A stretch of DNA of 64,000 bases, from assembly GCA_963924555.1 (NCBI GenBank), contig OZ004585.1:7456556-7520555 (forward strand), read 5' to 3'. Positions 16,524-46,333 of the stretch are shown here, piece by piece (positions within the stretch are counted from its first letter, which is position 1; each line of letters opens with the position of its first letter). The notes under the pieces were generated by a model. That model was not told the origin of the DNA and searched no databases. It worked only from the letters and a program-made list of their open reading frames with translations. The translations under genes were made by a program, and so were the position numbers. This stretch comes from Crambe crambe (Eukaryota > Porifera > Demospongiae > Poecilosclerida > Crambeidae).

Positions 16524-16833
16524 TTAAGATCAAAACAACTATAACTACAATAAAATCAGCCAATATAGGTTTAAGGGAGGTAGCTACAATAATTAAAAGA
16601 GTATGATTTGTAGCTACCAATACTTAGGAAATTTCTATATAGCTAGGTATTTAATCCATTGTGGTTAATAGCATGCCTTACAGTGATTATATAGCTAGAA
16701 GCTCCTTTGAGATATGAAGAAGCAAAAATTTGGGGTGATAATCTTGGACATGCACCACAACAGATCACTTGCATGAGTAGTCATGTGTGGTGGAGGTTAA
16801 TTGTCTATTAAATGGGAATTCTTATGAATACAG

Positions 16834-17669
16834 ATAAAATAAGGTTGCCAACTCAAGTGGTCGATATTCCTGGCATAACATTACGTAATGACGAGGAATA
16901 TGATGATTATGGAAAGTGGATTGTTTATAAAGATTTGAAGGACCTCGACGATGCATGGAAGAGGATTGGAGAAGCCATTCTGGCCGATAAGCTGCCTGGT
17001 TGCCGGGATGCCAAGTGCTCTACTCTGTATTATGATCCAACCCGTGTTGGACCAGGACCTTGTACAACTGGTGCTATTCTTGTGTATACTAAAAAAGATG
17101 ATATTGATGCTGTTGGCTTTGAATTAATCAAGTTAGTCCAACAGGATATCAAGTATAAATCTAATGAGAAGTCTAAAGAATATCAATACGCTTTTACTGG
17201 ACAAGGGCAAGTTACAGACAAAATCCTTTATTGGAATAGCGGAACCTCGTCTTTTAAAAGTGCTGGTGTCAGATGTTATGGCCATACACGTGATAAAGAA
17301 GATAAATGGCAATTGAATATTGTTAACGCTCGGGAACCATTGCGTTCAGAAGAAGCAGATGGTAAGTGGATACTTACTCTGGAATATGAAGAATTGACAC
17401 CACTTTGGCATTCATTGAAAGCTAAAATCGAATTCGGAAAATTTAAAGCTATTAAAATGGAATGCCCTCCAAAGCTTGACTACAGATCTCGTGAAGAAAA
17501 GCCAAGGTTCTTCATATTTACTAGCATGAAAGAAAAGAGTTCAGTTGGAAGATACCTAATTAAAATAATGAAGCGAGATATTCACTACGAGTTTAATAGC
17601 AAGCCTCACTCTCATGAGACACTCTACTGGAATGAGGGTAAGCCAGATTACAAAGAGATCAGGCACTAA
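16834..17669 (+). CDS. Second copy of BLES03-like exon
   Basis: About 95% identical to exon 2 of the gene at 2282-3964 over its whole length, with the same acceptor (cttatgaatacag) and a stop at 17667-17669. Both tandem halves (GKWI to TLYWN) are intact, so it looks under constraint. No copy of the short 5' exon (MNNSDELEG...) was found upstream. Three readings fit: it is the last exon of the 2A-DD gene (donor A|GTGAGT at 14986 is phase 1, as this acceptor needs); it starts at the ATG at 16812 or 16824; or it is a partial duplicate without promoter. I favour the first on splice phase, without transcript proof. Confidence 0.6.
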
Positions 17670-17933: not shown

Positions 17934-20900
17934 TTAACGTAAATATAATAATGCTGTGAATTTTAGTACCCTGAGAGTTTCTTCTTCAGCAGTGTAGTGC
18001 ACTTTTGTTGAGAGGTACTTGTATATCCTCTTACTGAATACTAGACCCTTGGAATAGCCAAGTATATCATGATTGCACTATCATAGAGGGTTCGATAACT
18101 ATGGTGAAATATCTCTTTATCACAATCACAACCAACCTCATCTTTTATACTTAGAGTGGCTCCTCTTTCTATCAGCATTTTTATAGTGTCCTGATCTTTG
18201 TTTTGCACAGCAAAGAAGATAGCAGTCCATTTACAGTACTGAAATGACAGTGAAATGAACCATTATACTGAACATTATTATAGATAATTATAATATGTAA
18301 TGTATCTCTAACTTCAAACCTTTTCAGCTACGATATTGACATTAGCATAAGCCTCTTCTATGAGGTATCTCATCATCTCAGTGTGTCTTTGCATTACAGC
18401 TAACATCAAAGGAGTCATCCCCCACTGCACACATGTATTATCATACGTATACTGCTATAAGTTCAATACCTCCGCATGGTTCTGCACTCACTTCATCTTG
18501 TGCATTAACATCAGTAGGTTCAGGTCTGGTTTTTTTAACCAAAGCTTCTATGGCTTTTCTTTCAAGACCTTTGTAGCTAGCAATGTGAGCAGCTGTTAAT
18601 CCTCCCTATTAAAGTAGTCCTTTTAGCTCTGGCATCCATGGCTATAATATCATACCCTCTTCCTTTTGTTGACATTGGCACCTGCTGCAACCAGCACTTG
18701 AATGATAGCTGTCCTCTCCTTTCTACAAGCAGTGGTCAGAGCAGTCCAGGAGCTCTGTAAGTAAGAATTATAGAGTAGGTATGATTTTTTGTAATTTTTT
18801 TTATTATTCAGTTCATGTTGCAATAAAAACTTCTAAGTCATGCATGATAGATGTGTGTGAGAATTATAATCAGCTTCTTTGTGCACTATAATATGTAGCT
18901 ACCTATAACTAATTGTTTAAACATACCTCGCTTTCATGGTCGATATCTATGGATTTAACTTCACTAAACATCTTCACTAACTCAGTATGGCCATCTTGAC
19001 TGGCCTGCATCAAAGGTGTCCATCCATTCTGTATCATAAGACAATCCACAAAACAAAATTGCACGTGAAGCAACTTACCCATACTTAGCTAACTATGTAT
19101 TTTGTATAAGTTTTTTGGAAAATAATTCAACAACACTATTAAGTGCCTAAGCCTATAGTGCCTATAATTATGATCAAAAAGCTGTAGAAAGCAATCAAGT
19201 CAAATCTCAATTTGCATGATTGGGGTGGGCTCACCAATGATGACTTTGTTACATTATACGCATTGTACCTTAGCTTTTATGTTAACATCCGCTCCTGCAT
19301 TCAGCAATAACTCAGCAACTTTTCGGCGGTTTGCCTCTGCCTCAGGTGATGTGAATTTTTTACTACCTTTTGACTGTGATGCCCACATCAAAGCAGACCA
19401 GCCTCGCTGTATAAAGCAATAGTATGCATAAGCTTAGGTTTAGTGCAATAATTATATGATATAAGTACTGTTTTGTTTTTCCTATCGACTTCAGTTTTGA
19501 TATGGTGTTTTGGATCCAATAGTACTCTGACCACTTCATAATTTCCTCGGCGGCTAGCCAACATCAGAGCTGTGAAGCCATTCTAAATTATACAACTTTA
19601 TAAAGTGATTTAGCTACGTATATATAGATGTGTAATTATACCGATGCATCTTTATTGGGATCAGCTCCATACTGTAAAAGGACCTCCACAGTCTCATGAT
19701 GTCCTCTGTGACTTGCCCACATCAGTGGTGTCCATTGTAGCTGTAGCATAAATATTACAGGTATGACAGCCGTGCATAATAATTATACAAATCTCAAATA
19801 GCTAATTGACTTACTGAGTCAAACTCAACAGTGTTTGGATGAGCTTTTTTCTTTAACAATTTCTCCACTTTATCACGTTTCCCAGCCTTAGCAGCTCTCA
19901 TCTATGTAGGTAAAGGAAATACTTTATTAGTTAGCAAATGTATCTGTGATAAGAACACGAGTGATGTGTGTCATACTTACAAGTTTGGCTTCATCAGCTA
20001 GTGGGATTTTCTTGTACCAACTAATCTTCATCTGAAATAGAGTTTTAGTTATACGTAGATTGTGATATCTATTGTGCCTCCTACCATGATTATTATCGCA
20101 AACAGAGAACTTAATAATGATAATATACATTTCAGTATAAGCAGTATGATTCATGGCTACCTGTTTTCCTTGATCTGTTTCACGATCTAAACTTTCATCT
20201 TCATCTTCTACACTTTCATCATCACTGCCAAGAAGTTCAACCATATCCATTTGTTGCTTTTCTCTTGCAATGTCTACAGGCCGAATCCCTTTCTACAAAT
20301 GATTTACGTATATGATGTTATATACTGCATTCTAAAATAATAATCCTTACTATATCAGTGATATCCCTTGATGCAGGAGAAGCATTGATCAAATACTTTA
20401 CAATTTCCATATTTTCACTTTCAACAGCAGCATGCAAAGCTGTACGCCCTCTTTTCTGCACATAATAATAACTTCAGCTCATAGCGATAGTTATGATTTG
20501 CTTTATTTGAGTTAGGCCTATGGCCTCATGCAGTAGTAGTATGCAAATAACAGACCTATAAAACTTACATCTTGTGCTTCAATATTTGCAGGTTCCCAAG
20601 GTTGAAGTGCTTCAACACTTGCTTTCTCTCCAAGGAGAGCCTTGATTATCCTAATGTTTTGATTCTCAACAGCAAGAATTAGTGCTGTCTTGCCATCATT
20701 ATTATTGATGTTTATATTAGCTCTTCCACTTCTCAAGATAAGGTCAATGACATGTAAAGCATTATCATTCACAGCAATCAGTAGAGGACACCAACCGCTC
20801 TGGATGAAGAAGAGTAAGACCATAATATGCATACATCATAAGTTGTATATGCCCACTACTAACTACAGCCAAACTTCAGCAGCAAAGATATTATTCATAC

Positions 20901-22243
20901 TCTACTCTGTGAAAGATAATTTGTCAACAGATCAACGGAAGTAACTGAACACAGACAGACATAAATTATTGTACATACGTACCCTATCCTGAATGTCAGG
21001 ATTTCCGCCCAAGTCAAGCAGTTGTTGAATGGTGTCATATTGGCCTGCTTTTGAGGCTACAATCAAAGCTGTAGATCCAGTCTGCATGCAGTAAATGCCA
21101 TAATTAAGATTGACTATTATTACTGACATTATACCTCCAGGTCTTGAGCATCTATAATATTTGCTTCAAACTCTGTGATGAGGTCCATAATATTTTGATG
21201 TCCATGCTCAGCAGCCATAAACAGTCCACATCTAAGAATCTATGGAGATCATATTATAATGCACAACACAATAATTAATAAAGCTATGAATGCATCTACC
21301 TCAGGACTACTCATAAGCTCCAACTGCAACATTCCCTTAGCAGCATCAAGATTTCCATCTCTACAAGCCTTTTCAAACTTGAAAAAAAATCATGAAAAAT
21401 GGCTAACACTCACATTCCACTCTATGTATATTATAGCTACCTTTTCTTGAAACTCCTTATTCATCAATGATTCTATATAAACTGTAATGAGGCAAGAATA
21501 AAACAATACTTAAGCCACAAGAATCCCCTACAATCTTCAAACAGAGCCAGTCAATACAAGAGACATACTTAGTAACACGATTTTTGGCTATAGCCTCGTT
21601 CTCTAGCTGGAGACTGTTCTGTTGTTTTTACTCTGTGCTAGATTCAACTCACCTCACTCTCAGAAGCATTCTGTGCAAGCTGTTTATGAAAGAAGTGATG
21701 TGTTTCTGTCGCTACCAACTGGTTAAACAAGAAGAGTCATTGCTATCAAAGTATCATGTGTAAGCTTGGCTTGAGAGTGATAATGGTGTTCTTGTTGTGT
21801 CTCAGTTTATTTTACTGATGTGGAACATGTCTGGAGCCAGATCAAGCTAGCTAGCAGCACTGATAGAATGCACGTGTGCTATATATGTTTTGATGATTAC
21901 ATCATTCGCCATGGCGTTATTATTACATGTTTAATTAAGCACATGTACATGCAGGCCCTCTCGTTTTTCCACTGCCCCATGAAAAAAGCGGGCCTGGGAG
22001 GCTAGCTAGCAGCATGCCCAGCCCAAAGATCAAAGAAGCCGCTCGAACTTTAAATCACATAAAGTTCGAGTGTGCTACAATCCACCCACGCACTGTGCTT
22101 TAAATTAGATACACCCCTCACACTTGGGATATACATACATACATAATCCATACATACATACATACATACTTACATACATATATGCATGCACATACATACA
22201 TACATACATACACACATACATACATACGTACACACACACACAC

Positions 22244-22311
<68 letters not shown>

Positions 22312-25300
22312 GGCACTTAATTGGCTAGCTGTATAGCCACATACCTTTTATTCTCTGTATTTCATCCCATTCAGGATTAGGATTGTTCATAAACCACCAC
22401 TCAACTGTTTTCTTCAGGGCACCTTTATTATCTTTGTTTCGAGACACACCAATATAGTTCCTGACTGAATCAGGCAAGCATAACAAAGATGCCACCATGA
22501 TCCATTTATCAGAGAAATCAAGCAACTCATTGGCAGCATTAGTGATTGTTAGTGGTTCTTGTGTCTTCTCACCACCTATTATCAGGAGTAGTTTATTGTT
22601 GCAAACAACAATAATAAATTGCAAATTGTTGAGCTATAGTGCTAATTAGCTTTTAAAATAATATTTGAGTGTAATTACATGAGAATCTGGCCAGGTAATT
22701 GGATGAGGTGAAACAGAGTGCAATTTTAGACAGTTTTGAATGTAAATTGCATGGAAAGACTGATTGATTCCAGCCTGGCTACATGTAGGAGGGTAAATGT
22801 ACTAAAGTATACTAACCATTATCTAAATCCAACACAAATTTAAGTACGAATGGGGGTATATATTATTACTTACCTAGCCATTTCATATGATCATAACTAG
22901 GAGCAAATTTCTCATCTTTTTCACAAACCATGCAACGACTTCCATAGCGGTACTCACATACATGCTCGCCATTTCTTCCACAATCACAGTAAAATGAAAT
23001 GCTAAATTTCCATGACTTAAGCCCACCCTTAATGACTTTTATCTTCTCCAAACTTTGTAACATGATCAAAGCAACTTGATGATAATAATTAGACAACCTG
23101 ATCTTGTCTTCAGATTTCACGTATACTTCAATATAAACTGCTTTGAAAGTGACAGTTATGACAGAATGAAGTTTCTCGGCCCTAAACTTTATGCAATTTT
23201 TATTCAAACACACAGGATTTCCAGACTGATCTTTTGGAATAATCCATGACTGATTTAGAAGACATGATATCAGCATTGGAACTAACTCGTTACCACTCGA
23301 AGGGCACTTGATGACCAGGGGTACGAGATCTGGATCAATAGAGTTACTACACACTTGTTGCCTTTCGGTTTCCTCTAAGGATTGAAGCAAGCAAGGCATA
23401 ATGTACTTGGTACTGCTATCAAATTGGAAAATTATCAACAATTTTTCGAAGAGTATTACGAAATCATTCTCAGACACGTATCCTAATCCATCAGTATAGG
23501 GTTCCACTATTTTCCGCAAATCAGCTTTGTCAAAGATAGATAACTTCTGACCACTCGCTTTTCTATTTGAGCTGATCTTATCATACAAAGAAGACAGTAT
23601 ATCCGAAAAAATTGCAATTTCCGAAAAAACTACATCTGATAAAATATCTTTGAAATAAAGAATCATATTGTGTTCTGTTAAGTGTACAAGTGCTGCTTCA
23701 ACTATTGGCCTGTCCATATTCAATTCTTTGCCTATTTTCATACAATGCTTTGAAACACTCAAAATGCGAATACTTGGATGGAAGGAGTTGATACTTTCTT
23801 TTAATTTGAAATTAAATATGTACCATGTAAATGGAAATATCTTTGAATCAGCACCTGATATTGCATGCTTGGTAATACTGGAATCAATACTGTCACTATT
23901 TCCTGGTGTTTTGCAGTTGAGGTGATATGTTTTATGTTCAGTCCCTTCCTTATAAGTTTCAATTATCACTAGTTTAGAAGTTGGTGTTTCAGCTAGTAGC
24001 AAAGCTTCTGGTTCATCTGGAGACAATTCTTTAGATGAGTCCATTACAAGAGCATACAAAGTCACATGTCTGATGAAGAGATTCAAAATTCCATTCAGTT
24101 TGAAAAAATTTGATCCACAGTCAATAATATGGAGAAGTTCCATTTTCCCTTTGTCCTTATATTGTGATATGAACTTAATGGTGTCCTCCACACTTACAGA
24201 TCCAAAGACCTGATCAACATCTTGAGTGCTTTTTGGTGCTTCCGCCTCAGATTTTCTTCCTTCAATGGGATGGTAAAGAGGACTGACGTTGGATTCTGGA
24301 TGTGATGGTTCTGATGGGGATTCTGGGTGTGATGGTTCTAATGGAGTCACTGAGTATGGATGTACTGGTGATCGTGAAGATGCTTCTACTACATGTACTT
24401 CAGATTTTTGTTCTTTTGGGCATTCTGGTTCCATCTCTGTCTCTTTATCTCGTGACATTGTAAATGCAACTATTTCATTATAATGCTTCATTTCCATCTT
24501 TTGAAATAATTCATTATCAGAATCAGCCGCTCGAAAATATATTTCATGTTCAACCGATGATGTAGTTTGGAGTGTTGTGGGTACACATTCCTGAAGGGCT
24601 ATGTGTTTAGCACTTGTAACATCTGAGCTAGAAATTCCAAGAAAGAGTACTGATGTAACACTGATATTGAGAGAGCCTTGATTCAGTGCCTCATTGAATA
24701 AAGCAGCAGCTTCTTTATCTACGGGAAAAAGACAGTTAAGATAAGCTATATCATCAGTATCTTAAGCAATGAATCATGAATTAAAATAATTATTAGTAAA
24801 CTACGTACATCCCTTTTTCTCCAAAGCAAGTTGAAGTCAATTAGTAGTATAATCATGCATACTTACCATTATCATTTGAAGTAATATTAATATTTTCATT
24901 TCTGAACCATAATAGTTCAGATTCCTTAAGCTGACTTGATTCTCCATTACTACATTTAACAGTTTTAGAATCTGAAACGAAGCTCTTCATTGAGTAAAAA
25001 TGTGGTTCAGAGCTAGGTGGGCAGCTGCTGTTGCTACAAGATAGTGTCAACTCAAATTCTTGCTTTTCAAGCCAACGTGGCACTATTCGCTGCAGATGTA
25101 CAATCAATGTTGATGTAATGTAGGCATAGATGTCAGTACTAGCATCTTCATTTGAAACACAGTCGATTCGAATATATTGGGAAAATTCAGATAATATTAA
25201 ATGAATGGAGTCTTCATTGATCATAAATTCAAATTGATTCCTGCAGACCTGGATACACTGGGAGCTAACAGGAGGAATCTTCCATTTTGTATGGCTATAA

Positions 25301-28300
25301 GTTACTCCAGCTAATACAGTCAACAGTCTAGTAAACATACCAGTGGCAATATATCCAGATTCTGGGACTATATAGAGAGGAGTTTTACCATTGAATAGCT
25401 TCAAATTATCTTCATATTTTTCTGTTGTGGGTAAAATTGAAGGAATGAAGTAACAAATCTCTTGTTGCAAAAAACTAATTTGAAAGCTCAGATGATGCTC
25501 TTCTAGAAATTCCATAAACCAATGATCATCTACTTCAGATGGTTTCTTACTGAGAAGGTGCCGATAAAAATTCATTGGCATAATACCTCTTTTAGCTAAT
25601 ATCTTCCATTCTTCTTTGAGCGTTTTCGGATCATAGCAGAATAATGTTGCAAGGACTTGCAGCAAAGCTTTGGGATCGATTACTACAAAGTTTCTCATAG
25701 TCCTTTTTTCAGATAAATGGTACCACATGAATACTCCAAGTTCATGGAAGTACATCAAAGCAGCTTTAGGATCCTCAACATTACACTTTTCCCTGCCAAT
25801 TGAAATAGCATCAGCTAAAGGAATAATGCCAATGTTCACATAATTAGTGTAACACATTCTCTGCAGTGCAACTTTGAAAGTTTGCCAAGAGCAAGGAATT
25901 TCAATAGATGATTTTTTAGCACGAAATGTTATACTGTTACGAAGTGACTCAATGCCAGGATCACCTATACTGAAATTTTGGCCGGATTTAGTGTTATCAA
26001 CTTCATGAATGTAAAAATCATTTTTGTCTGGTACAGAGCAGATTGACAAAGTGTTACGAAATTTCTCAGCAAACCTGCTGATATTATTATTGAGATCTGT
26101 TTCAAGTGACTTCGTACTCTCAGGTGCCTTATCTTTATGTGTCCCAACTATGACAGCTGCAACTGAGGGTGCTTGTCTATGAGGTCTTATTGGTAGAGGT
26201 AGGCTTTCCACTTCCATGCTGCATGAAAAAGCTTGAACGAAAGATAAGTCTCGATAAATTATATCTTTATGGGTGAAGGGAGACACAGCTTGTGGCAGGA
26301 AAGATTTCATTGGTCGAATTTCAGGTTTTTGGTCAAGATTTTCTAAATCACTCAAACGGAAAACTATTCCATACATACAATTAAATCTTGCAAAGCAAGG
26401 CAGTAAATCTTGGAATATTGGTTGTCCCCCAGTGTCCCACATAGTGAGAAAAACTTTGTCTTCACTTTGTACATGAAGTAATGGTTTAAAGGCACTACTT
26501 CCATCAACAGCTGCCATCAATTCACGATAGAGAAATTCAGATTCCATTACTATAGTTGGAGATTCGTCATCATCTATTGGTTCATCTTTTAAGTGCTTTC
26601 GGAGACTGGTTTTACCAGCTCCAGTAAAGCCAATCAGTACGAAGTGAATTTCAGATCCATTTTTTACAGTGTCAGTACCAGATATCGTTGCCAAACCAAG
26701 CCATGTCTTCTCTAGTTCTGTATAATTACAAAATTAATTGCATTAATTACGTATTATGATCATGTAATCGATATTGGAACTTACCTAGAAAGTCTTGAAG
26801 TTCACTTGCTAAAGCTGAATAAGTAGCTGGTCTCAGGTGAGATTTTTTAGACAACCACCTTTGTTCAAAAGAATTCTTTAGTAAGTGGTTGCTTAGAAAT
26901 TCAGCATGGGGAGCATTATCATTGGAAAAAATGGTAATCACATCCTTCATCCACAGCAAGTCACTGTAAGGAATACGTGGTGGATTGGGAAGTTCTTCAC
27001 TGAGAGAATCACCGTCATATACAGGAATGAATTTTGTTTCAAGTTCAGTTCCATTTTGTTGAATGAATATAGTTTCCAGAGTAACCTTGATATTTTGATT
27101 CAGTCTTTCGAATCTGCTCATACAGCTTGCAACACTTGACAGGAGTGATAATTGATTGACTTCTGATTCTGCATAATAGCTATTGGAGATGGCAATTTCT
27201 CGAAATGATTTCAATTTCTCAATGATTACAACAGGATACTTCATCATTCCTTCTTCTGCTGCTGGATAATACAATCCTATTATTGATGGAACTTCTTTAT
27301 GATCATGATTCAAAATCTCTAGATATTCAACATATCTACTATCAATTGTGGATTCAAAGTCGTTAGGATACAGTAGTGCTATACACTCTTTCCCTTGATA
27401 CTGAGCTGATATCATCCTGATTTTCTTCCTATTTGGGGATGATTCTTTTGAAAGGATATCTGCAGGCCGTAATGTGATATCTGTGAGGACTTTCCAATGT
27501 TTCAATAATACTTCACGTTTTCCAAACTTATACAACTTTACACTTCTATCTCTCAAAGATTTTATTTTATTTGGGAAGAGAGGTATTGTCTGTAAACTTA
27601 GCAATTCTGTACAAGGGATTTGAAGATATATAACCAGACTTCCTATGACAACTTTGTATATGAATGTTGTATAGGGCTCCATCCCCAAAAGTTCACACAG
27701 AAATGATATGAAATCATATGGCTCGCGTACTTCATGACCAAGTTGAGCCTCAGGAGTATCAATAATAAACACAGCAGTACAATAATTTGGAATATCTGGT
27801 AAAAGATTTTGGATAGGCTCATATATTCTACATCTTGCATATTTTTCAAAGCTTTCAATATAATTTTTAGCATTTTGTTTATCTATATCAGATCCAAACT
27901 TTTCTATAACTTTTTTTACAAAAAATTCGAAATTCATGAATGATTGGTGATAATAAATCTGCATCAAAAGACTTTTTGTATCTCTTCGTTCTCTGATTCC
28001 CTCCAAACGAGTTTTATCTAAATTCAATGGAGCTGATAAAAGATCCAGATCATCAAAGTCATTATCAGTACAGGTGTTCAAAAATGAATTTTTGAAACTA
28101 CCAAATAATGAGCTAAAATCGGATTGCATTTTCTTTGTTTCCTTTCTTAGCATTGCTAGAAATGTTTGGAAATGATGATCATCCCAAGAAGGAGGCCACA
28201 CATCTGGATATTTATAGTGTACAACTGCTGACTTGCTATCATTTCCTAGACTCTGTGATGATTCTTTGTTGCATAATCTAGTGGCACCGGTAGAATTACT

Positions 28301-29139: not shown

Positions 29140-32100
29140 TCTTAGATAACCATATCTCTCAAACCACTCAAGCTACAGCTATGATTTCTGGATAAATCCA
29201 CTCCAAATTCTACGAACTACGATCTTTTCTACTCGTTGATCCTCGAAAGAGTCGATGAAAAAGGAGACACTACGGAGCACAGCACTCGACTAATTCAATT
29301 AGGAAGCCATCTTTTCTATAATACGCATGCGCATGTATTTGATGTCCAATTATTCGAAATTATAATATTACTCAGCTGTCTCTAGCTAGCTAGCTAGCTC
29401 TAGCTTTGGATAATGATGATGATAGACTACTGTATCGATTCGGGGATTTAGATTCACCACGGTATTGGGTAGACTCTATTTCAGCATCTTCGACCTCTAA
29501 GTATGGCTCAACAAAACACAACACCTTGACTCGATAATGATTGGGCTAGTATGTATTATTGGAGAACTATTGGAGAACTTCTTTCATCTGTCTCTGCATA
29601 CACATAGAAGAATAAACTCTATACATAGCTAAAACAATAAAAGAGGGAAAAAGACCAGGAACAAGTAAGGGAAAAAGCATTTCGTGAAATGAAAAAAGAT
29701 GTAGGGATGACCACTGCTCAAAAAAGTAAGGAAACAAGAAGGATGGAAATGGGATCAATCTTTGTTCTGTATATCCAGCCAACAATCCCTACATATACGT
29801 ACATTACTACACTATAATCTGAAGCTACCCGACGTATATGTGGGGATTGTTGGCTGGATATACAGAACAAAGATTGATCCCATTTCCATCCCTTACTTTT
29901 TTGAGCAGTGGTCATCCCTACATCTTTTTTCATTTCACGAAATGCTTTTTCCCTTATATGATTCTTATATACAGTATAATATACGTACCTTTCTTAGGAG
30001 TTTCCACACAATATTTTCTCTGCAAACGATTTGCAATTGCTGGTTTGTTAACAATAGGGTCATTAAGAACATTAATGATTGATTCCCAGGACACTGGAAC
30101 GTCAGTATTATCACCTGTCCAGTAGTTTAGAGTTTCAATGAAACACCGTGCTGTCCTTCCATAATGATCCTCTTTAAATACATCCAGATTGTCTGTTTTT
30201 ATGCCCAATTGGATGCCTATTTCATACCACTTGCTTTGCACCTCACTTAGCTCATTTAATAAAGTCTTAAAATCTACAGTGACTTGCGAAAAGAAAAAAT
30301 ATATATATATTGATTATACACAATCTTTATCTGAAAATAATCCCTACTGTATTTTTTTTGAATGCTGTACAGAAATTCGAAAAATAAAATTCATATGCAC
30401 ATGTAACTGTGGCATAATTATCATGCTGATTGTAACAACTAATTATTATCATGTTATGTATCATCTAATCACATCATTATGTACATGTATCATAATTATA
30501 TCTAATCATATCATTATACACATGTATCAAGAGAGATCACCAGACTAGGGTAGCAGCTGTTCTGTTAGTCTAACTTTGTGATATAATTTGGAGACAGTTA
30601 CAGTGGTAGCAGAGAACAGTTTTTTTTTCCAGAGAGGAATGGCAGAAAAACATATTTCCATACCCAAGCCATTTTCACATGATGATGTTCGTGAATGGTT
30701 CCAACGTCATAGTTCCCAACTTTGAGAAACTAATTTCAGGGACACTAAATTCTACCACAAGTCACACCTACTTTTGAAGTCCCGCCCCTGTACCACGCCC
30801 ATATTCTGGCCACTGACTGAAGGACTAAGAAGAACGAGGAGAAGAACAGTTTTCATGAACTGGACATTGAATTACTTGACCTTGTGCACTGTTGATTGAT
30901 ACATGCAGCTATCTTAGCTCACTGCATTGTCTGAGTGCTGTGCAGTCAGTGTGGTGCATTCATTAGTGACTGGTTATGCTGTTAAGTAAACAAACTACCG
31001 TAGTCTGTAGCGCTAAAACGAAGCTTCCGGGACAAACAATAGGCAGTTTACACTTCCGTGGTGGGACGGGACAGAGTTGATAAATCCGGGACTGTCCCAG
31101 ACGTTTCGGGACAGTTGGAAACTATGCAACGTTTTGAGATATGCTGCAAGGCTAATGCATGGGATGATGCAAAGAAAGCACTGAAGCTCCCTACGTTACT
31201 GGAGGGAGAAGCTCTGGCTGTGTGGCTGGAATTGAGTGAGGCAGAACAAGCTGACTATAAGATAGCAAAGGACTCCAAGCTGACACCAGTGGCATTCGTT
31301 TCAATGGACGAGTTTCATAAAAGAAAATTGCGACCAGGTGAACCCTTGTCTATATTTGTCCAGGATGTAAAGAGACTGCTTTTGCAAGCTATGCCAGACT
31401 TGGACCAAGGAACACGGAATCAGTTGCTACATCATCAGGTGATTGCTGGATTGCCTGTTCATGTTAACAGACAGTTAAGAGCAATGTTAATGACCTGATA
31501 ACACCTGTAATTCTTGGGGTAGACTTCCTACAGCATCATGGCCTATTGTTGGACTTTACAACAACACCTGTTTCGATTGCATCAAAGTCAAAATCATCCA
31601 TTTCAAGTCCTTCTGGGCCTGACCACATGGGAGTATTACATGTCGATCGTTGTAGCTGCAGCACTGCAGTATGGATTTTTGGCTCTACTTCAAGCCAGCT
31701 TTGTCTCTCCCTAAATAGAAGGGGCACAAGGGCTGCTAATAAAGCCATATCTTGGAGGCCTGGCATCAGCCACGTTGGCCAGGGCCTAACAGAAGTAGGA
31801 ATTCTTCTAAGCAAATATACTTGAACAACTCTTCTCTGTAGCAAACTATACGTCTCAATGCTTCAGTGGAGAATCCTTGGCAGGCAAGTGTTAGCCGGCT
31901 AGCCCGGGCACTAGCTAGCTAGCTAGCTGGTGATTCAAAATTAAAGATTCGAATATTTCTTTGGACAAAAATTTCAACCAACGAAAATTTCCCGCTATAG
32001 GTAGTTATATACATTTACAATAGACAGTCCATGGATATATTATACAGCCCAGCTAGCCATCCCCACATAACCTTTGAAATTCTTTGCGCTTTCTTTTTTC

Positions 32101-32519: not shown

Positions 32520-35500
32520 GGGGAGTAGCCAGGTTTTTTATTTCACTGAGGCAAAATTGGGGGGACAGGGGGAGGGTGTAGGAGAGGGATGTGCCAGAGC
32601 GCAAAGCAATTTTTTAAATAAAATTTGGAGACCTTTATTTTTACTGATAAGCTCATGCAGTATAAATAGCTATCGATTCAGCCATTGATAGTGAAGCTAT
32701 AACTTATAGTGATGTTCGTAGCCAATTCTTAAGTGCTAAAGATGTCAGGAAGGGTCAGCAATGCTCTGGCACTGCAAACCTCTCTATTGATTATGTACTA
32801 ATTTCCTAAATTTTTCACTAAGGCGAGTGCCTCAGTTGCCTCAATGGTAGCTACTCCTCTGACAGACTGAGTACTGTAAGCTTCACTACACATGGACGCA
32901 CCAAGGCTTCATTTAAAGAAAACTCACCAGGTATTTGTTCAGGTCCAGTTTGGTGATCCTTCTCATTATGAGATCCTATTAATTATCAAATTGTCCTATT
33001 GAAAATATAGTTATAATATTAAATAACAGTTACCATGTTGTTGTGGTCCAGTTTGGTGGGCATCATCACACACATGTAATAATGGCATGCCTTCTTTGTA
33101 GGCACTGCTCTCGGTACAAAATCCTACATGTTGGGGAATTTTTTTCCTTCATATACACTATAATTGTACATTTTTACTCCTTAAAAGCTCACCATCTAAT
33201 TGTAATCCAGCTTGGTGGGCATCATGTAATAATGGAATACCTTCTTTATAGGTGCTGCTCTCAGTATGGGACCCTGAATAATGATAATAATAATGTTGAT
33301 TGTACATGTACATGATTCTCTAGGAATTAATATTTAATTGGAGCAAAATCAAGTTGCAACATCTGGGTCTCTAACGATTAAAGATAGCTATACAGTATCC
33401 TTCTTAAACCACTACTGAAAAAAACACAATGCATGATATGTAACTATAGCAACGTGTAGCAACTTTTACTATACTCTAAAACCTCTGATCACCTTCGAGC
33501 ACTGATAAGCTGACAACTTCTGGAGTACTTGGTGGGGAAGTTTCCACAGCTGTCACCTTCTGTACACCTATGTATGATAATTTATACGTAAATAAGTAAC
33601 AGCTCCACATATTAACCATGATTTTTTAGCCACCACCTTCCTGTACTGGCAAGCTGACAACTTCTGGAGTACTTGGTGGGGAAGTTTGAGTTTGAGTTTC
33701 CATAGCAACTGCCACCTTCTGTACATCTATGTTTGATAATTAAATAGTTATGTAAGTAATATGTATATGCATAATTTTTTAGCCATCAGCCCACATCAGT
33801 TTACTCTACCTACAAGATTTGGCCATTATAATTGAATTTCTATACCACATCACTGTGGTTTTTTTCAACTAATGGCATAATGGCCAATAATATGCTGCCA
33901 GCAAAACCATCTGATGAGAAACTAATGATCAACAAATAGTTGTCTAACTTAGCTATACTACATACCACATGCATGGATGTGGTGGAATGGTGGCACATGT
34001 ACATACCGTATTTCCGCGATCAGACGCGCCCTTGTTTTGTAGCCTCTCTCGAATAGTAGCCTCCCACAATTCTCTGCTAAAAATAATAGTGGCCACACTC
34101 GAATAAGAGCCTCCTGTATCACGTGTGCCAAACACGTGGTCTGCTATAATGGCTGAAGCTCATGTTGTTTGTGGCCATTCGTTATTTGAGTTAGATAGAT
34201 AGCGGTTTAGATGGTGTTGTTCGTGGTAGATCGTGGTAGATAGTGCTTTGTTCGTGGCCATCATGTGTATAAAGTCCATCAGAGTTGGTTTGGAACTGTG
34301 TTACATGCTTTTTGGAAAGCCAAAAGCCATCAAGTGACTCGTGAAGCTGCTAAGACATAAGATGACTAGTAACATTTCATCACCCCCGTTTAGTGGCCTC
34401 TCTCGAATTGTAGCCTCCCTCTCTGGCAGAATGAAATAATTAGTAGCCACAGCATCTGATCGCAGAAATACGGTATCAAGATTTAGGTCAATAAAGATAA
34501 TAGCTAGTGACTTGATTGATTGAGCCTATGTAGTTTTCAACCCCCACATGATGCAGACTAAAGGAATCCTTAATTGTGTCTATAGTTATGCTTTAGTAAC
34601 ACTTCGCCCTATGAGCTAGCTAACTAAAGCCTTTCAGGTAAAACATAATGTATTCTTCAGTCTATTATTGAGTCTACATGAAAAAAATTGACATCAACGA
34701 GTCAATGACATGCTCGTTGAGACGTAAGCCAATGAAGCCAAAAGCATGCAGTATAATTTTCATAATGGATGAAACCAAGGATGTTAGTTACTCTATAAAA
34801 CATTATCTGTGTCTACAGCACTCACCTCTACTGGATGGTACAACCAATTTGTCTATTGAAAAATATGACATTATGTACAGGTAAGGGCCTTTTTATTGTC
34901 AGCTTACAGGAGAGAGCACTGATAATTTCTAGTAATAATTTCATCGATGGATACAAGAATTGGTCTAGAGTAGATGATGACAATAAATGCAATGTATACA
35001 TGTCAGGTAAGGCTATAGCACTTACAGGAGAAAGCACAGATAATTATTAGTATTGGTAGGCACCAGAACCAGTCTGAATGATGATAATATTTAACATAAA
35101 TGCAATGGTACATACTATAGTGTTGTAATTATGGTCCCTCCCCAATGCAGTTTTGGATGATATCAGTAAAGTAATGGATGGTCTGATCAATGTCCTAGCA
35201 CGTTATGAAGGAATAGGTGGGAGGCTCAATATACCAAATGAGAAATTTGTGGACAGAATTTGAGTGCAGCAGTGGCTATGAGGAGAGTGATTGTGAATTA
35301 GCTAAATACGAATTATCCCCCACCAACTTGGAAGGTTCTGGTTGATGCTGTCAAACAGCTAGGGCTGCAAGCAAACATACGTAAAGCTATTTCTGATTTT
35401 TAAATGGAGAAGATCTGTCGAATGGTTCTGCTAATTACAAAAAAGGTCATGTAACACAAAAACCACTCATGCAAAACAGCTAATCTTATAGTACTTGACT

Positions 35501-36329
35501 ACATGCCTCAAATACCTACTAAATTGAAAAAAAAAAAAAACTCACCGGGACCAGGGTTAGTTTCAACATCACCAGCTAATATCAATAACAAGGAAGTCAC
35601 CACCTGATGATCAGAATAATGGACAGTGTGAAGAACTCTTCTCCTTCGATAACATTTCCAGTTATCTCTAAGAGGTAATATCACAGTGGAAACATTTCCA
35701 TTTGTGATAATGCAGCCATTTCGGTGATTAGTGCACATGAAACATGAACAGTGTGGACCATTACGAAAGCGAGTTTTGGTTGTCCCTTCAGATTCAATCA
35801 CTGCAAGCTTCCACCACAATATTGTCAGCAAGTAGTTCAAAAAAAGCATGTATCTTAGGACTTCACCTAAAAACATGGTATTAAAAAGAACACTGTTTTA
35901 AATGAATGTGAAGATTAGTATGGCTACAGCTATAGCTATGTAGTTGATAAGGCTACACAAACTAACTTCTAACCTAAATATGGGGGAGCTGTTTAGTTAA
36001 ATATGTAGTTTGTCTAAATATGTACATAGCTACCTCAATAAAAATGAAAATAAAAAAATTGGATAAAGGTGATAAGTATGCTTGGCCTTAAACTGAATCA
36101 TATGTAATCCACACCTGTACTCAATAAACGCTCCATCTTGAGAGCATACGAAAACATGACAGCTATCAACAACCACCATAAAGTCAATATGAGAGGAATG
36201 AACCAGACATGGCGGGAAATGGCCGGGGAGCTTCTCTGCTTTGGCTTGTGTCCATGGAAACAGTAATACTGCCTCAGGTGCTGGACCCGAGATTTCCACA
36301 GGTCTGCCAGTTGAGACCTGAGCATTCTC
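17934..36329 (-). CDS. Giant 2A-DD-ROCO-DD-ankyrin protein
   Basis: About 30 exons joined by phase: 36115-36329, 35546-35866, 33637-33726, 33493-33567, 33193-33273, 33034-33123, 32928-32975, 29989-30273, 26785-28338, 24867-26717, 22874-24718, 22345-22575 (all phase 1), then 21441-21481 and phase-0 ankyrin exons 21300-21377, 21135-21239, 20983-21081, 20569-20799, 20351-20455, 20161-20292, 19981-20031, 19815-19901, 19642-19740, 19469-19582, 19269-19406, 18927-19028, 18656-18754, 18492-18605, 18320-18424, 18137-18238 and an uncertain last exon near 17934-18050. Order: hydrophobic N-terminus, 2A-like motif, repeat linkers, DD, beta module and possible pseudokinase, Roc-COR, degenerate Roc-COR, DD, about 14 ankyrin units. 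Roughly 2,600 residues. Suggested role is GTPase-regulated death-fold signalling. It could be two or more transcripts. Confidence 0.7.
18137..21377 (-). other. Ankyrin-repeat block of the ROCO gene
   Basis: Sixteen phase-0 exons, most encoding one ankyrin unit of 33-38 residues, for example LQWTPLMWASHRGHHETVEV, NGFTALMLASRRGNYEVVRV and GGLTAAHIASYKGLERKAIE. Exon 20569-20799 holds two units, and exon 19269-19406 carries an insertion in its loop. Exons 20161-20292 and 19981-20031 form an acidic, Asp/Glu-rich break (DDESVEDEDESLDRE) that divides the block into about five units before and eight after. One exon per repeat favours growth by exon duplication. Confidence 0.85.
22132..22310. repeat. 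(CATA)n/(CA)n compound microsatellite
   Basis: CATA tetranucleotides pass into a long CA run. It lies in the intron between the second DD exon and exon 21441-21481. Overlapping open frames of MCVCVC type are artefacts. Confidence 0.95.
22345..22575 (-). other. Second Death domain exon of the ROCO gene
   Basis: A 77-residue phase-1 exon with the DD helix pattern: LLDFSDKWIMVASLLCLPD, a central ALKKTVEWWF helix and a closing PEWDEIQRIK. It joins the upstream COR exon (CTA G|GT) and the downstream exon 21441-21481 (AAA G|TT) in frame. It links the GTPase part to the ankyrin repeats. Confidence 0.75.
22874..24718 (-). other. Degenerate Roc-COR (pseudo-GTPase) exon
   Basis: One 1,845-bp exon. 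Near its start, VLFLGISSSDVTSAKH occupies the P-loop position, but the G-x-x-x-x-G-K-S/T residues are replaced, including the lysine. Later IIDCGSNFFKLNGILNLFIR aligns with the switch II region of the preceding exon (MWDTGGQPIFQDLLPCFARF), with DTGGQ changed to DCGSN. COR-like helices follow (VEAALVHLTEHNMILYFKD), then a Cys/His-rich end (CDCGRNGEHVCEYRYGSRC). Nucleotide binding is therefore unlikely. A Ser/Pro/Glu-rich insert (about residues 90-160) separates P-loop and switch II positions. Confidence 0.7.
24867..26717 (-). other. Roc GTPase-COR exon of the ROCO gene
   Basis: A 1,851-bp exon in phase 1 at both ends. It shows an intact P-loop (LIGFTGAGKTSLRKHL), switch II (WDTGGQPIFQ) and a base-specificity motif in the form VGTHKD, then a COR domain with ALMYFHELGVFMWYHLSE and FVVIDPKALLQVLATLF. 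This is the ROCO (LRRK/MFHAS1-type) arrangement. No leucine-rich repeats or conventional kinase domain were seen. It is expected to bind GTP and dimerise through COR. Confidence 0.85.
26785..28338 (-). other. Helical/beta module and possible pseudokinase exon
   Basis: A 518-residue exon between the first DD and Roc. The first half resembles exon 5 of the plus-strand 2A-DD gene: a helical segment (FFVKKVIEKFG...ARCRIYEPI against ILKSVINNFG...ERRLCEVPI) followed by a strand and IPLFPNKIKSLRDRSVKLYKF, comparable to EIFPLNEEQRDQLKEIGVLK. The second half (VPSIIGLYYP, KYPVVIIEKLKSFREIA, LLSSVASCMSRFERLN, QRWLSKKSHLRPATYSALA) has the spacing of a protein-kinase C-lobe but no HRD or DFG. I suggest a pseudokinase with low confidence. 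Confidence 0.5.
28485..28550. other. Short perfect-stem hairpin in intron
   Basis: 'agcagccatttcatct' (28485-28500) pairs with 'agatgaaatggctgct' about 35 bases later, and the loop holds a second palindrome 'ggaaaccataatggtttcc'. It lies in an intron of the ROCO gene. It could be a MITE core or a small hairpin RNA; nothing decides this. Confidence 0.5.
29083..29134. repeat. (TTA)n microsatellite
   Basis: About 17 TTA units. The overlapping open frame with a Leu run is a repeat artefact. Confidence 0.95.
29666..29956. repeat. Long near-perfect inverted repeat (hairpin)
   Basis: Left arm 29666-29800 and right arm 29832-29956 are reverse complements, with a single 10-base insertion in the left arm ('gaaacaagaa') and about one mismatch near the loop. 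The loop is about 31 bp. It sits 33 bp from the donor of the first DD exon, inside the intron. Transcribed RNA would fold into a stem of about 125 bp. Confidence 0.85.
29989..30273 (-). other. First Death domain exon of the ROCO gene
   Basis: A 95-residue phase-1 exon. It begins FKTLLNELSEVQSKWYEIG and contains CFIETLNYW and VSWESIINVLNDP, matching the six-helix DD pattern with the conserved W before the fifth helix. It could join directly to the 2A exon (CCC G|AT) or through the five repeat linker exons; all are phase 1. Confidence 0.8.
30639..31580 (+). mobile_element. Gypsy-type retroelement remnant (gag plus protease end)
   Basis: A start near 30639 opens a gag-like frame, interrupted at 30707 by a MITE and resumed at 31133-31498. 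It shows typical gag segments (GEALAVWLELSEAEQADYK; RKLRPGEPLSIFVQDVKRLL). Directly after its stop, the segment giving TPVILGVDFLQHHGLLLDF matches the C-terminal end of a retropepsin. Zinc knuckle, protease active site, RT and integrase are missing, so it is an internally deleted dead copy. It lies antisense in a ROCO-gene intron. The preceding 'tggtagcagagaac' may be a leader or primer-site remnant. Confidence 0.65.
30708..31126. mobile_element. 419-bp MITE inserted in the Gypsy gag
   Basis: Ends CATAGTTCCCAACT and, in reverse complement, CATAGTTTCCAACT form 14-bp terminal inverted repeats (13 of 14 match). CAACGT occurs on both sides (30702-30707 and 31127-31132) as a 6-bp target duplication. 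The insertion interrupts an otherwise open gag frame, so it is younger than the Gypsy copy. Confidence 0.75.
32479..32520. repeat. (GACA)n microsatellite
   Basis: About ten GACA units directly abut the next 'ggggagtagcc' repeat element. Confidence 0.9.
32521..32872. mobile_element. Possible MITE with 'gaggagtagc' ends
   Basis: The left end 'ggggagtagccagg' and right end, in reverse complement 'gaggagtagctacc', are imperfect inverted repeats, each followed by a 'gaggcaa' motif. No clear target duplication was found, so the boundaries are tentative. Confidence 0.35.
32928..33726 (-). other. Five small symmetrical repeat exons of the ROCO gene
   Basis: Exons 33637-33726, 33493-33567, 33193-33273, 33034-33123 and 32928-32975 all have good AG/GT borders and are phase 1-1. 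Two encode VQKV...TSPPSTPEVVSL; two encode TESS-YKEG-PLLH-DAHQ-G, and the last is a shorter form with HQTGPEQ. They lie between the 2A exon and the first DD exon. The pairs come from local exon duplication, and any can be skipped without changing frame. Confidence 0.65.
34006..34473. mobile_element. MITE with CCGTATTTCYGCGATCAGA ends
   Basis: Left CCGTATTTCCGCGATCAGA and right (reverse complement) CCGTATTTCTGCGATCAGA form long terminal inverted repeats flanked by TA on both sides. The interior has repeated 'gcctctctcgaat(a/t)gtagcctcc' motifs near each end. Non-autonomous, Tc1/mariner-like by its TA target. Confidence 0.7.
35151..35402 (+). pseudogene. Degenerate Death-domain fragment
   Basis: After an acceptor-like 'caatgcag', the plus strand encodes VLARYEGIGGRLNIPNEKF, then a frameshift and stop. 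In another frame it resumes as PPTWKVLVDAVKQLGLQANI, which matches the last DD helices. The phase-1 start matches the family. It lies on the strand opposite the ROCO gene, in the intron after the 2A exon, and looks like a decayed DD copy. Confidence 0.45.
35546..35866 (-). other. 2A-like exon of the ROCO gene (GDVETNPGP)
   Basis: A phase-1 exon encoding a hydrophobic stretch (MLFLNYLLTILWWKLAVI), a Cys-containing region (HCSCFMCTNHRNGC) and HTVHYSDHQVVTSLLLILAG followed by DVETNPGP. The donor falls one base past the last Pro codon, exactly as in the plus-strand gene at 12193. A shorter exon form could use the acceptor at 35801 (cttgcag). DVETNPGP is a full 2A consensus. Homology to exon 11995-12193 is clear from HCSC, VHYSD-QVV, LLLIL-GD and NPGPG. 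Confidence 0.8.
36115..36329 (-). other. Candidate first coding exon with signal anchor
   Basis: The phase-1 frame starts with Met at about 36324 and contains RHVWFIPLILTLWWLLIAVM, a strong membrane-spanning segment, before ending ACA G|GTGTGG. It joins exon 35546-35866 in frame. A second open frame through the same DNA is less consistent with splice phase. It would give the protein an N-terminal membrane anchor upstream of the 2A site. Assignment rests on phase only. Confidence 0.4.
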
Positions 36330-44491: not shown

Positions 44492-45478
44492 TCAGCAACA
44501 AAAACGTTTTGTCAAATGAAGGAAGAGAACTAGGAAAAGTCCAATGCTGAAGCTAAACATGGTCCACCCAAATGCTGTCTGAAGTCTTAGGAGGAGCGTG
44601 TGATCAGTGCTGTACCGCAAGATAGTGACAGCATTGGATGGCTGGAGAGATGACACCAGGACGCAGATATCCTGAGCACCTGAGGAGCTATTAATAGTGA
44701 GAGAGCAGCTTGAGGTTGAAAATAAGCACGAGGTGGCAGTCAAATTAGTGATGTTGTATTGAACGAGGTCCTCAGCTGTCGTGTAGTCTAGTTGTACTGA
44801 CTCAAAGCTTTTCAAACCTACAAAGAAGTTCATGTCGTGATTGGATGTAGAAATGCCAATTTCCACTGCGGAGGCTGAAGGAAGACAGTAAGTATTTGCA
44901 TTAGTTGTACGTCCATTTTTGAGAAATTCCTTGTAATCGTTGTATGCAGAAAAAACAGAGATATTGGCAACATATTTTGATGAAATTTCCATTTCAGAGT
45001 TTGAAAAGTTGTATTGTATTTTGGATCCTCTTATCAAGTGCACCTCATCAATCCTGTATTGCATATCATTGCTTATATTCAGCTGTCTCATGCTATTTAA
45101 ATTCATGGTAAAGTTTTGGATCTCAGAACATGCATCTTGATAAAGATTGATCTCGTTAGCTGCTTCATTCACTCTAATGAAATTAACTTTACCAATGTTG
45201 CGACTGTTAAAACTTGAGACTAGCACCACATCAGAGCTTCCCACTGTTAAGACTTCACCACTTGGCAGTGCTGCAGGTACTGTGGCCAGCAGGCAAATAG
45301 CCGTAACTAGCACCAATATTCCTGATATCATTGTGATCATAACACAAGCAATTTCAAATTTCGTATTCTCATAGCAAAAATCATAACAAGATTCACAGCA
45401 TCTCTCAGACGAACTGTTTATTTTCCTGCAACATGCTGAAAGACGTTTCTTGTACAAATAAATGACACCATTAACCAT
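44492..45478 (-). CDS. Two-pass membrane protein with glycosylated ectodomain
   Basis: A single-exon frame of 328 codons. The N-terminal 40 residues are basic and Cys-rich (CCRKINSSSERCCESCYDFC), then a membrane segment (residues about 43-67, ACVMITMISGILVLVTAICL), then about 230 residues with many N-x-S/T sites (NFTM, NIS, NFS, NLT, NSSS), and a second membrane segment near 304-323 (TMFSFSIGLFLVLFLHL) ending in KRFCC. Predicted topology: both ends cytosolic, middle outside, with possible lipidation at the terminal Cys pair. I do not recognise the family. Its 5' UTR or upstream exons are undetermined; a run 'aaaagcagggcatgc' is duplicated just upstream (about 45555-45590). Confidence 0.65.
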   Translation of the reverse strand: MVNGVIYLYKKRLSACCRKINSSSERCCESCYDFCYENTKFEIACVMITMISGILVLVTAICLLATVPAALPSGEVLTVGSSDVVLVSSFNSRNIGKVNFIRVNEAANEINLYQDACSEIQNFTMNLNSMRQLNISNDMQYRIDEVHLIRGSKIQYNFSNSEMEISSKYVANISVFSAYNDYKEFLKNGRTTNANTYCLPSASAVEIGISTSNHDMNFFVGLKSFESVQLDYTTAEDLVQYNITNLTATSCLFSTSSCSLTINSSSGAQDICVLVSSLQPSNAVTILRYSTDHTLLLRLQTAFGWTMFSFSIGLFLVLFLHLTKRFCC

Positions 45479-46333
45479 GATGATAGCTCTGTAAACAATA
45501 GTTAATGATGAAGTTTGAATACATAATTAGATGATTATAATAGGCACCTTACCTACAAAAAGCAGGGCATGCAAAAGCAGGGCATGCAAAAGTAGAAGTT
45601 GATATAATTATATTGTGCCATTAATAATACACACTAGTGAGTGACAACTCTGGAAAAATTTCTGTAGACTACTGAGGTGGTACAAAGATTGGATTCTAGT
45701 CCCTTTGAGTCTACATTACATTTGTAGAAGAATCTAGGGATTCCTAAAAATAATGTAGGACAATAGCTAGTGATCTAGCTATAGGCTAACTATATAGCTG
45801 GCTAGCTATAGCTAAGACAAACTTACTTTACTTATCAGATGAAGATATCACGCCAACCTTGATGCATGGGAAGCAAAAGAGCTAATAATGAGTGCTCGAG
45901 GTTTTTTTTTATTTCAAGAGCGTGAGATAATGAGTGACTCTATTTCCTCCATGACTGCAGGGCTTCTTGTAAGCAAACATGAACTTTGACCCTATGTAAT
46001 CAAGGAGCCCACCCCCAGGAGTAGAGAAAGAGCTAGCTCTATCTCTGAGCTAGAGATCAATCAACATATGAACATATCCAGCAGTATGTTCGTAGCTTGA
46101 TAAATGCACTAACTACTCAAACACCACATGAACCAGTTGGCTATGCTCACAGTTAAGTTAGTTGTTAGCCCTGTTGATTCTGTTTATGGAGAACAGCAGA
46201 ACTTCATACTATACTACACAGAGCCAACCAGCCAAGTAAAAATGAACTAGTTATTATTATAGTTATGCAATTGTTTAAAAAAGGCAATAATAATGCCAAT
46301 TAGGGGGTAAGTGACACTACTACACTGTCTCTG

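Follow-up and report, generated by a model that had tools for sequence, protein, structure and literature searches.

The closest described system is found in the sea urchin. According to Roulston et al. (2016, PMC4981915), 14 sea-urchin NLRs (SpNLR2A) carry 26-residue N-terminal 2A leaders, and dual targeting was reported for such a leader, with the unskipped form going to the secretory pathway. That paper, and PMC12846837 by citation, also mention non-LTR retrotransposons carrying 2A-like sequences. Among viruses, 2A/StopGo classes with an L-rich hexapeptide ending in (A/S/C)G before the D of the core have been distinguished, and a representative of motif 6 was active in vitro (Li et al. 2026, PMC12846837). 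According to the same paper, cellular proteomes have been searched for 2A motifs (Rao et al. 2025, Cell Rep 44:115822). In this study, we analyzed computationally a 64,000-nucleotide stretch of the sponge Crambe crambe (the window; contig OZ004585.1, here C8, positions 7456556-7520555 of the 143-Mb, 119-contig assembly GCA_963924555.1), in which an exon on the minus strand encodes a 2A-like peptide upstream of a ROCO gene body. We consider it probable that this is one gene split by 2A (StopGo), in which a single mRNA would encode a 176-residue leader ending in 2A and then, in frame, a protein with death-domain (DD), ROC-COR and ankyrin parts.

The 2A exon (exon 2; 35546-35866, minus strand, phase 1 at both ends) encodes the second hydrophobic segment of the leader, a Cys-rich stretch and the 2A peptide. 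It is 321 nt long, with TTTTTAG on its 5' side and GTGAGT on its 3' side. The translation ends in ...VVTSLLLILAGDVETNPGP plus one base, so that the donor lies one base past the last Pro codon, and the Cys-containing part of the leader encoded in this exon is GPHCSCFMCTNHRNGC. GDVETNPGP occupies 35547-35573 on the minus strand, and DVETNPGP (35547-35570) fits the 2A/StopGo core (D/G/C/N)(V/I)ExNPGP. This octapeptide was constant in 18 of 18 aligned copies. The hexapeptide before it, LLILAG, is L-rich with AG before the D, and by eye it matches a class in PMC12846837. Since exon 2 is in phase 1 at both edges, it could be inserted or moved with the frame kept. These results agree with the original prediction, made from the letters of the window, of a complete 2A consensus at the exon end, a donor one base after the last Pro codon and a hydrophobic, Cys-containing leader. 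The predicted exon boundaries were also exact, but the exon does not start the gene as had been assumed; it is exon 2, preceded at a distance of 248 bp by a conserved exon with the ATG.

Exon 1 (36115-36325, minus strand) carries the ATG, 70 codons plus one base, a basic N-terminus and a hydrophobic segment, and ends at the phase-1 donor AG|GTGTGG. It is separated from exon 2 by a GT-AG intron (intron 1, 35867-36114, minus strand), and in the window an in-frame stop lies upstream of its ATG. Joined from the two exons, the leader has 176 residues to NPG, with the cut point at NPG|P, and a hydropathy scan gave two hydrophobic segments at residues 35-65 and 73-96. No Pfam match over cut-off was obtained for the leader (the best, to CBL, had E 0.014 and was seen for 15 of 18 members), and no solved relative was found. 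In PHROGs, exon 2 had two matches at E 0.05-0.06 and exon 1 had none; among viral contigs, none of 44 pattern matches was confirmed as a relative of the leader.

The open frame continues from the leader into the gene body. It spans 802 codons through exon 1, exon 2, a DD exon (30273-29989) and a long exon (28338-26785), with GT-AG edges and phase-1 junctions, and the coding frame predicted from the genome is continuous on both sides of the 2A motif. A 67-nt intron, read from the same splice-frame output, joins the long exon to the ROC-COR exon. The DD exon (minus strand, phase 1 at both ends) scored 20.4 bits against Pfam Death within its open reading frame (ORF) and 18.5 bits as a trimmed piece, both below the Death cut-off of 22.6; the other Pfam cut-offs, in bits, were Roc 27, COR-A 35.3 and ZU5 21. 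The long exon (minus strand) has a phase-1 acceptor and is ~41-43% conserved in C8 relatives, with its domain unassigned. In the ROC-COR exon (24853-26717, minus strand, the 3' limit being that of the ORF), Roc scored 35.3 bits, over its cut-off, and COR-A 33.6, just below its cut-off. As had been predicted, a DD exon in matching phase can supply the next frame, and ROCO and ankyrin coding regions lie on the same strand. The ankyrin-repeat exons are found at 18317-21165 (minus strand), where 9 of 9 scanned ORFs were over an ankyrin cut-off, and their strand and order suggest that they belong to the same gene as the leader. Between the ROC-COR and ankyrin exons lie an ORF at 22866-24761 (minus strand; 44-50% conserved in C8 relatives, no Pfam match over cut-off) and a weak death-domain-like ORF at 22328-22633 (minus strand; E 0.0033 with our own DD profile, no Pfam match), whose part at 22349-22576 is 62-66% like two C8 relatives.

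The leader recurs throughout the genome. Exon 2 had 82 genome matches, and only one of them contained an internal stop. Matches at least 84% identical in amino acids numbered 42 including the window's own, none with a stop, and the other 41 were 84-90% identical. Close copies stand in same-strand tandem arrays, for example at C8 0.60-1.09 Mb. The exon-1 block (~230 bp, 36332-36103) was found at 40 places including the window, from 40 of 70 candidates scored, and the other 39 showed 86-94% DNA identity. All 11 readable exon-1 copies were open over ~70 codons and ended at a phase-1 AG|GT donor; one had an in-frame 9-nt deletion, and in another the aligned start was GTG, the codon before it being ATG. 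An in-frame stop preceded the ATG in four of these 11 copies, the window included. For 39 of the 40 exon-1 blocks, the same strand carried a family 2A exon at a distance of 66 bp to 15.6 kb downstream. Within 20 kb, the opposite strand held no family 2A exon for any of the 40 blocks; five blocks had an additional one upstream, as expected from tandem arrays. The blocks pair with 39 of the 43 family 2A exons.

Both leader exons are under purifying selection. The median dN/dS of exon 2 was 0.21 (23 copies; 249 pairs with dS >0.02, all <1), and the median pN/pS of exon 1 was 0.23 (10 copies; 39 of 45 pairs with pS >0.02; 95% <1). Replacement changes in exon 2 were rarest in its last 18 residues (pN 0.010 vs 0.052). 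The copies have no common flanks between clusters, where DNA similarity stopped at a median of 9 bp before and 8 bp after exon 2 (172 pairs); within clusters, similarity extended past the exon by medians of 331 and 1059 bp (18 pairs). The mean synonymous difference of exon 2 was 0.19, though the flanking introns fail to align between clusters. Exon shuffling, gene conversion of the leader or nucleotide constraint would each fit this low synonymous divergence.

We also compared 2A sites with DD-like exons over the whole genome. A degenerate DNA pattern for D(V/I/M)ExNPGP gave 208 matches in the 143-Mb genome, and the same pattern reversed, used as a control, gave 0; the motif is thus present more often than by chance. 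Positions were listed for 131 of the 208 places (100 plus 31 more). We read 31 distinct 2A sites, with 1.5 kb of downstream sequence at 15 of them, ~3 kb at eight and at least 6 kb at eight. Our own DD profile was built from nine DD-like exons, all after 2A sites counted among the 31. With this profile, a DD-like exon was detected downstream in sense at 19 of the 31 sites and antisense at one, the window's relic described below, and upstream at 0 of the 31 (23 with at least 1 kb of upstream sequence). Ten of the 19 positive sites had contributed nothing to the profile. In nine copies, the next exon was a DD-like exon (DD1), and in 9 of 9 DD1 copies examined the acceptor was phase 1, which fits the 2A donor.

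The assignment of these exons as death domains was compared with Pfam. Four of 10 DD pieces tested were over the Death cut-off, and the DD of one site (L043) scored 19.6 bits inside its longer ORF, below it. At four C5 sites (~9.01-9.05 Mb), a Death match over cut-off begins 132-136 bp after the motif start, and one of these sites is also among the four pieces over the cut-off. DD1 aligned with four DD-like exons of the genome at 97.9% probability in hhalign, compared with 0.2% for the leader control. Pfam Death matched it weakly, in 6 of 9 members and with no match shown to exceed the cut-off, and no solved relative of DD1 was found.

The ROC exon of the window had 21 close matches (at least 57%, the window's own included, with pieces of one copy merged). 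In 20 of these 21 matches, the same strand has a 2A exon 3.4-33 kb upstream; two of the 21 share one 2A site and one is the window itself. The sole close match lacking a 2A exon comes from C10, where the copy aligns in three pieces.

From its composition, the leader would consist of a basic N-terminus, two hydrophobic segments, a Cys-rich and basic stretch and the 2A end. We predict ribosome skipping at the NPG|P bond, upon which the leader would stay in the membrane and the receptor, starting P-DFKTLL, would be released as a free cytosolic protein. Failed skipping would leave the receptor tied to the membrane leader, and two pools would result. This design recurs in the tandem paralogues, and elsewhere in the genome other 2A leaders precede exons for NACHT, ankyrin, LRR/ZU5 and Ig. 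Skipping at the window 2A is likely, because LLILAG fits the L-rich classes ending in (A/S/C)G and the motif 6 representative was active in vitro (PMC12846837). There is a small chance that skipping is instead weak, the leader being mainly an uncleaved membrane anchor and the DD-ROCO protein chiefly membrane-bound. The two hydrophobic segments would suit such an anchor, as would the reported passage of the unskipped sea-urchin NLR form to the secretory pathway (PMC4981915), but the constancy of the octapeptide, the scarcity of replacement changes in the last 18 residues and an upstream context that fits an active class all argue for skipping.

Several observations weigh against a 2A-split gene of this kind. 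Splicing and skipping are predictions from genomic sequence, and the topology of the leader is predicted from the hydropathy scan. In seven of the 11 exon-1 copies, no in-frame stop was found in the 17-22 codons read upstream of the ATG, which leaves the start codon of those seven putative. In the window, DD1, usually the family's first death-domain-like exon, is present only as an inverted, frame-broken copy adjoining the 2A exon (~35153-35355, plus strand). The intron from the 2A exon to the usable DD is 5.3 kb long and holds an ORF on the opposite strand (31043-31498, plus) that, by eye, we take to be gag-like. A DD exon downstream of the leader had been predicted; a usable one does follow at 5.3 kb, but the nearest DD exon in the window is the inverted relic. 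The broken DD1 and the long intron with its gag-like ORF suggest that the window copy may be damaged. It is nevertheless unlikely that the family is as described while the window's own leader has lost its splicing to a complete receptor, since the frame remains uninterrupted from exon 1 by way of exon 2 and a second DD exon into the long exon, and the window's exon 2 has no stop and gives a dN/dS of 0.15-0.28 against other close copies.

Further points of this kind come from the ROCO genes of the whole genome, most of which do not have this leader. Here 150 of 339 COR-A candidates and 150 of 965 Death candidates were scored. Among the 166 COR/ROC loci scored, 47 had a 2A on the same strand within 40 kb upstream and 119 had none there, while 35 had one downstream. 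Counted from 164 2A sites (131 pattern-listed places plus 33 exon-2 family matches), a same-strand COR lay downstream of 47 and upstream of 36, and the corresponding numbers on the opposite strand were 4 and 1. The orientation of 2A and COR therefore agrees strongly and their side weakly. As the side preference over all COR loci is weak, it is the close ROC matches (n=21) and the DD test that carry our claim. In addition, each of six C5 2A sites is preceded by a COR ORF at 6.6-9.1 kb, and the following COR ORF, where listed, comes 18-38 kb later; with our own profile, weak DD-like exons were detected 17-24 kb after two of the six. Twelve of the 31 sites read had no DD in the stretch read, which was only 1.5 kb for most of them.

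Another reading is that the leader exons are a separate gene, or are spliced to several downstream partners in the arrays, with their place ahead of ROCO only reflecting common clusters. The similarities of leader and ROC to those of the window are out of step: at C10 1.8-2.1 Mb, the leaders are 55-58% like the window's (one split in two pieces) and the ROC exons 65%, and at C8 0.6-1.09 Mb, the leaders are 84-90% alike where complete and the ROC exons 61-63%. By these similarities, leader and body have separate histories. The C5 2A sites lie closer to the preceding COR ORF, and at C21 the same leader is followed by DD, LRR and ZU5 stretches. Still, this reading is decidedly improbable, given the phase-1 donor that fits the acceptor in all nine DD1 copies examined and the DD-like exons that lie downstream, never upstream, at the sites read. 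As a separate observation on COR genes, the COR-A matches listed form large tandem clusters at C1 8.1-9.4 Mb, C3 7.5-7.8 Mb and C11 7.1-7.3 Mb, and no 2A site falls in the C1 or C3 stretch among the 131 places listed.

That exon 2 is a piece of a retrotransposon carrying a 2A peptide, as 2A-like sequences in non-LTR elements might suggest (PMC4981915; cited in PMC12846837), is very unlikely, to a degree that makes it negligible, because the 41 copies are 84-90% identical, their flanks are unshared between clusters and dN/dS is ~0.21; moreover, between-cluster similarity ends at the splice sites, the copies stand in same-strand arrays paired with exon 1, DD-like exons come after the 2A exons and the leader has no Pfam match over cut-off, no search aimed at reverse transcriptase having been made. 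Alignment of the exon to a retrotransposon, an outcome named beforehand, was not found by the flank-similarity and exon-1 pairing tests.

Returning to the 2A-split gene, we found that such leaders are not peculiar to ROCO here and occur near other bodies as well. At C5 9.02 Mb (L044, C5:9022500-9026000), a 2A motif is followed by a death-domain exon and an 821-residue ORF with NACHT (68 bits); strand and nearness suggest an NLR-like gene with a 2A leader, as in the sea urchin. Ankyrin bodies were found near 2A sites at C9 and C6. At C21, the window-type leader precedes a DD stretch, LRR over cut-off and ZU5 just below it (20.6 of 21). At a C1 site (L042, C1:3553600-3557000), same-strand Ig-domain ORFs follow the 2A motif instead of a death domain, and the C1 3.55-3.99 Mb cluster has nine motif matches. 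From their strand and nearness, the NACHT, ankyrin, LRR/ZU5 and Ig domains would be in the same genes as the 2A leaders. At C8 6.61 Mb (L046, C8:6614100-6617600), the 2A is followed by an ORF of 601 residues, which includes a hydrophobic segment and matched nothing in Pfam above cut-off, and at one C11 site no body was seen in 3 kb. By eye, the leaders of other clusters are unlike the window's except for the L-rich run before the motif. We put it at even chances that a large share of this animal's immune-type receptor genes begin with 2A/StopGo as a standard, shuffled 5' module, with ~200 sites and several unrelated leaders ahead of DD-ROCO, DD-NACHT, DD-ankyrin, DD-LRR/ZU5 or Ig bodies. The commonest leader would then be a conserved membrane protein, made one per receptor, and the efficiency of skipping would set the free and tethered shares.

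The window also contains a second, divergent 2A exon (~12013-12193, plus strand, 5' limit uncertain), with the motif GDIEVNPGP and a translation ending in ...VVIPLLLILGGDIEVNPGP plus one base. A DD-like exon follows after ~110 bp (12302-12568, plus strand, phase 1 at both ends; E 3e-18 with our own profile), and its Death score of 15.2 bits is below the cut-off. This pair (12013-12568) lies on the strand opposite to the main 2A exon. Elsewhere in the window, two near-identical 285-residue ORFs are located ~13.7 kb apart (3107-3964 and 16812-17669, plus strand), the first with a weak Bles03 match below cut-off. A 344-residue ORF at 44492-45526 (minus strand) has a stretch of the LPSGEVL...SNDVVLV type that, by eye, resembles the start of the 601-residue ORF at C8 6.61 Mb.

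2A on sea-urchin NLRs was already known; the fusion to ROCO, the long leader and the scale look new, as judged from a literature search that found no report recognised as describing 2A in sponge or ROCO genes and that did not cover the survey of Rao et al. (2025). By term search, neither PMC8623073 nor PMC11512398 mentions sponge, and PMC5890393 was discarded as a false match on '2a-like'. These results suggest that animals are able to make regular use of a virus-style skipping signal in genes of their own. If skipping is confirmed, the 208 motif matches, many in tandem arrays ahead of DD exons, would change the current view. Two testable questions follow: why immune-type receptors of sponge and sea urchin both carry 2A just before a death domain, and whether it is skipping that decides between membrane and cytosolic signalling.

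Compared with known systems, the locus resembles 2A-bearing non-LTR retrotransposons in that it is part of an animal genome and has its 2A motif close to an N-terminus (as cited above). Unlike those elements, its copies share no element sequence beyond the exon between clusters, and the predicted frame runs into a DD and a long exon (no reverse-transcriptase profile was searched). With ROCO proteins that have death domains and ankyrin repeats, it shares Roc, COR-A (just under cut-off), DD and ankyrin exons on the same strand, whereas a 2A leader at the 5' end sets it apart from a typical ROCO gene, as the 119 COR loci without one illustrate. The core octapeptide and the L-rich hexapeptide ending in (A/S/C)G are those of the viral 2A/StopGo peptides in PMC12846837; unlike in viruses, they belong here to host gene families with introns in tandem arrays, and their activity is a prediction. 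The sea-urchin NLRs (PMC4981915) differ in having a 26-residue leader on 14 genes, compared with 176 residues, two exons, two hydrophobic segments, a Cys-rich stretch and at least 42 close copies here. The body of the window gene is also Roc/COR and ankyrin rather than NACHT-LRR, NACHT being found instead at C5 9.02 Mb. What the two systems have in common is an immune-type receptor family in which a hydrophobic N-terminal leader with 2A precedes a death domain, and in both, one receptor would have two predicted locations.

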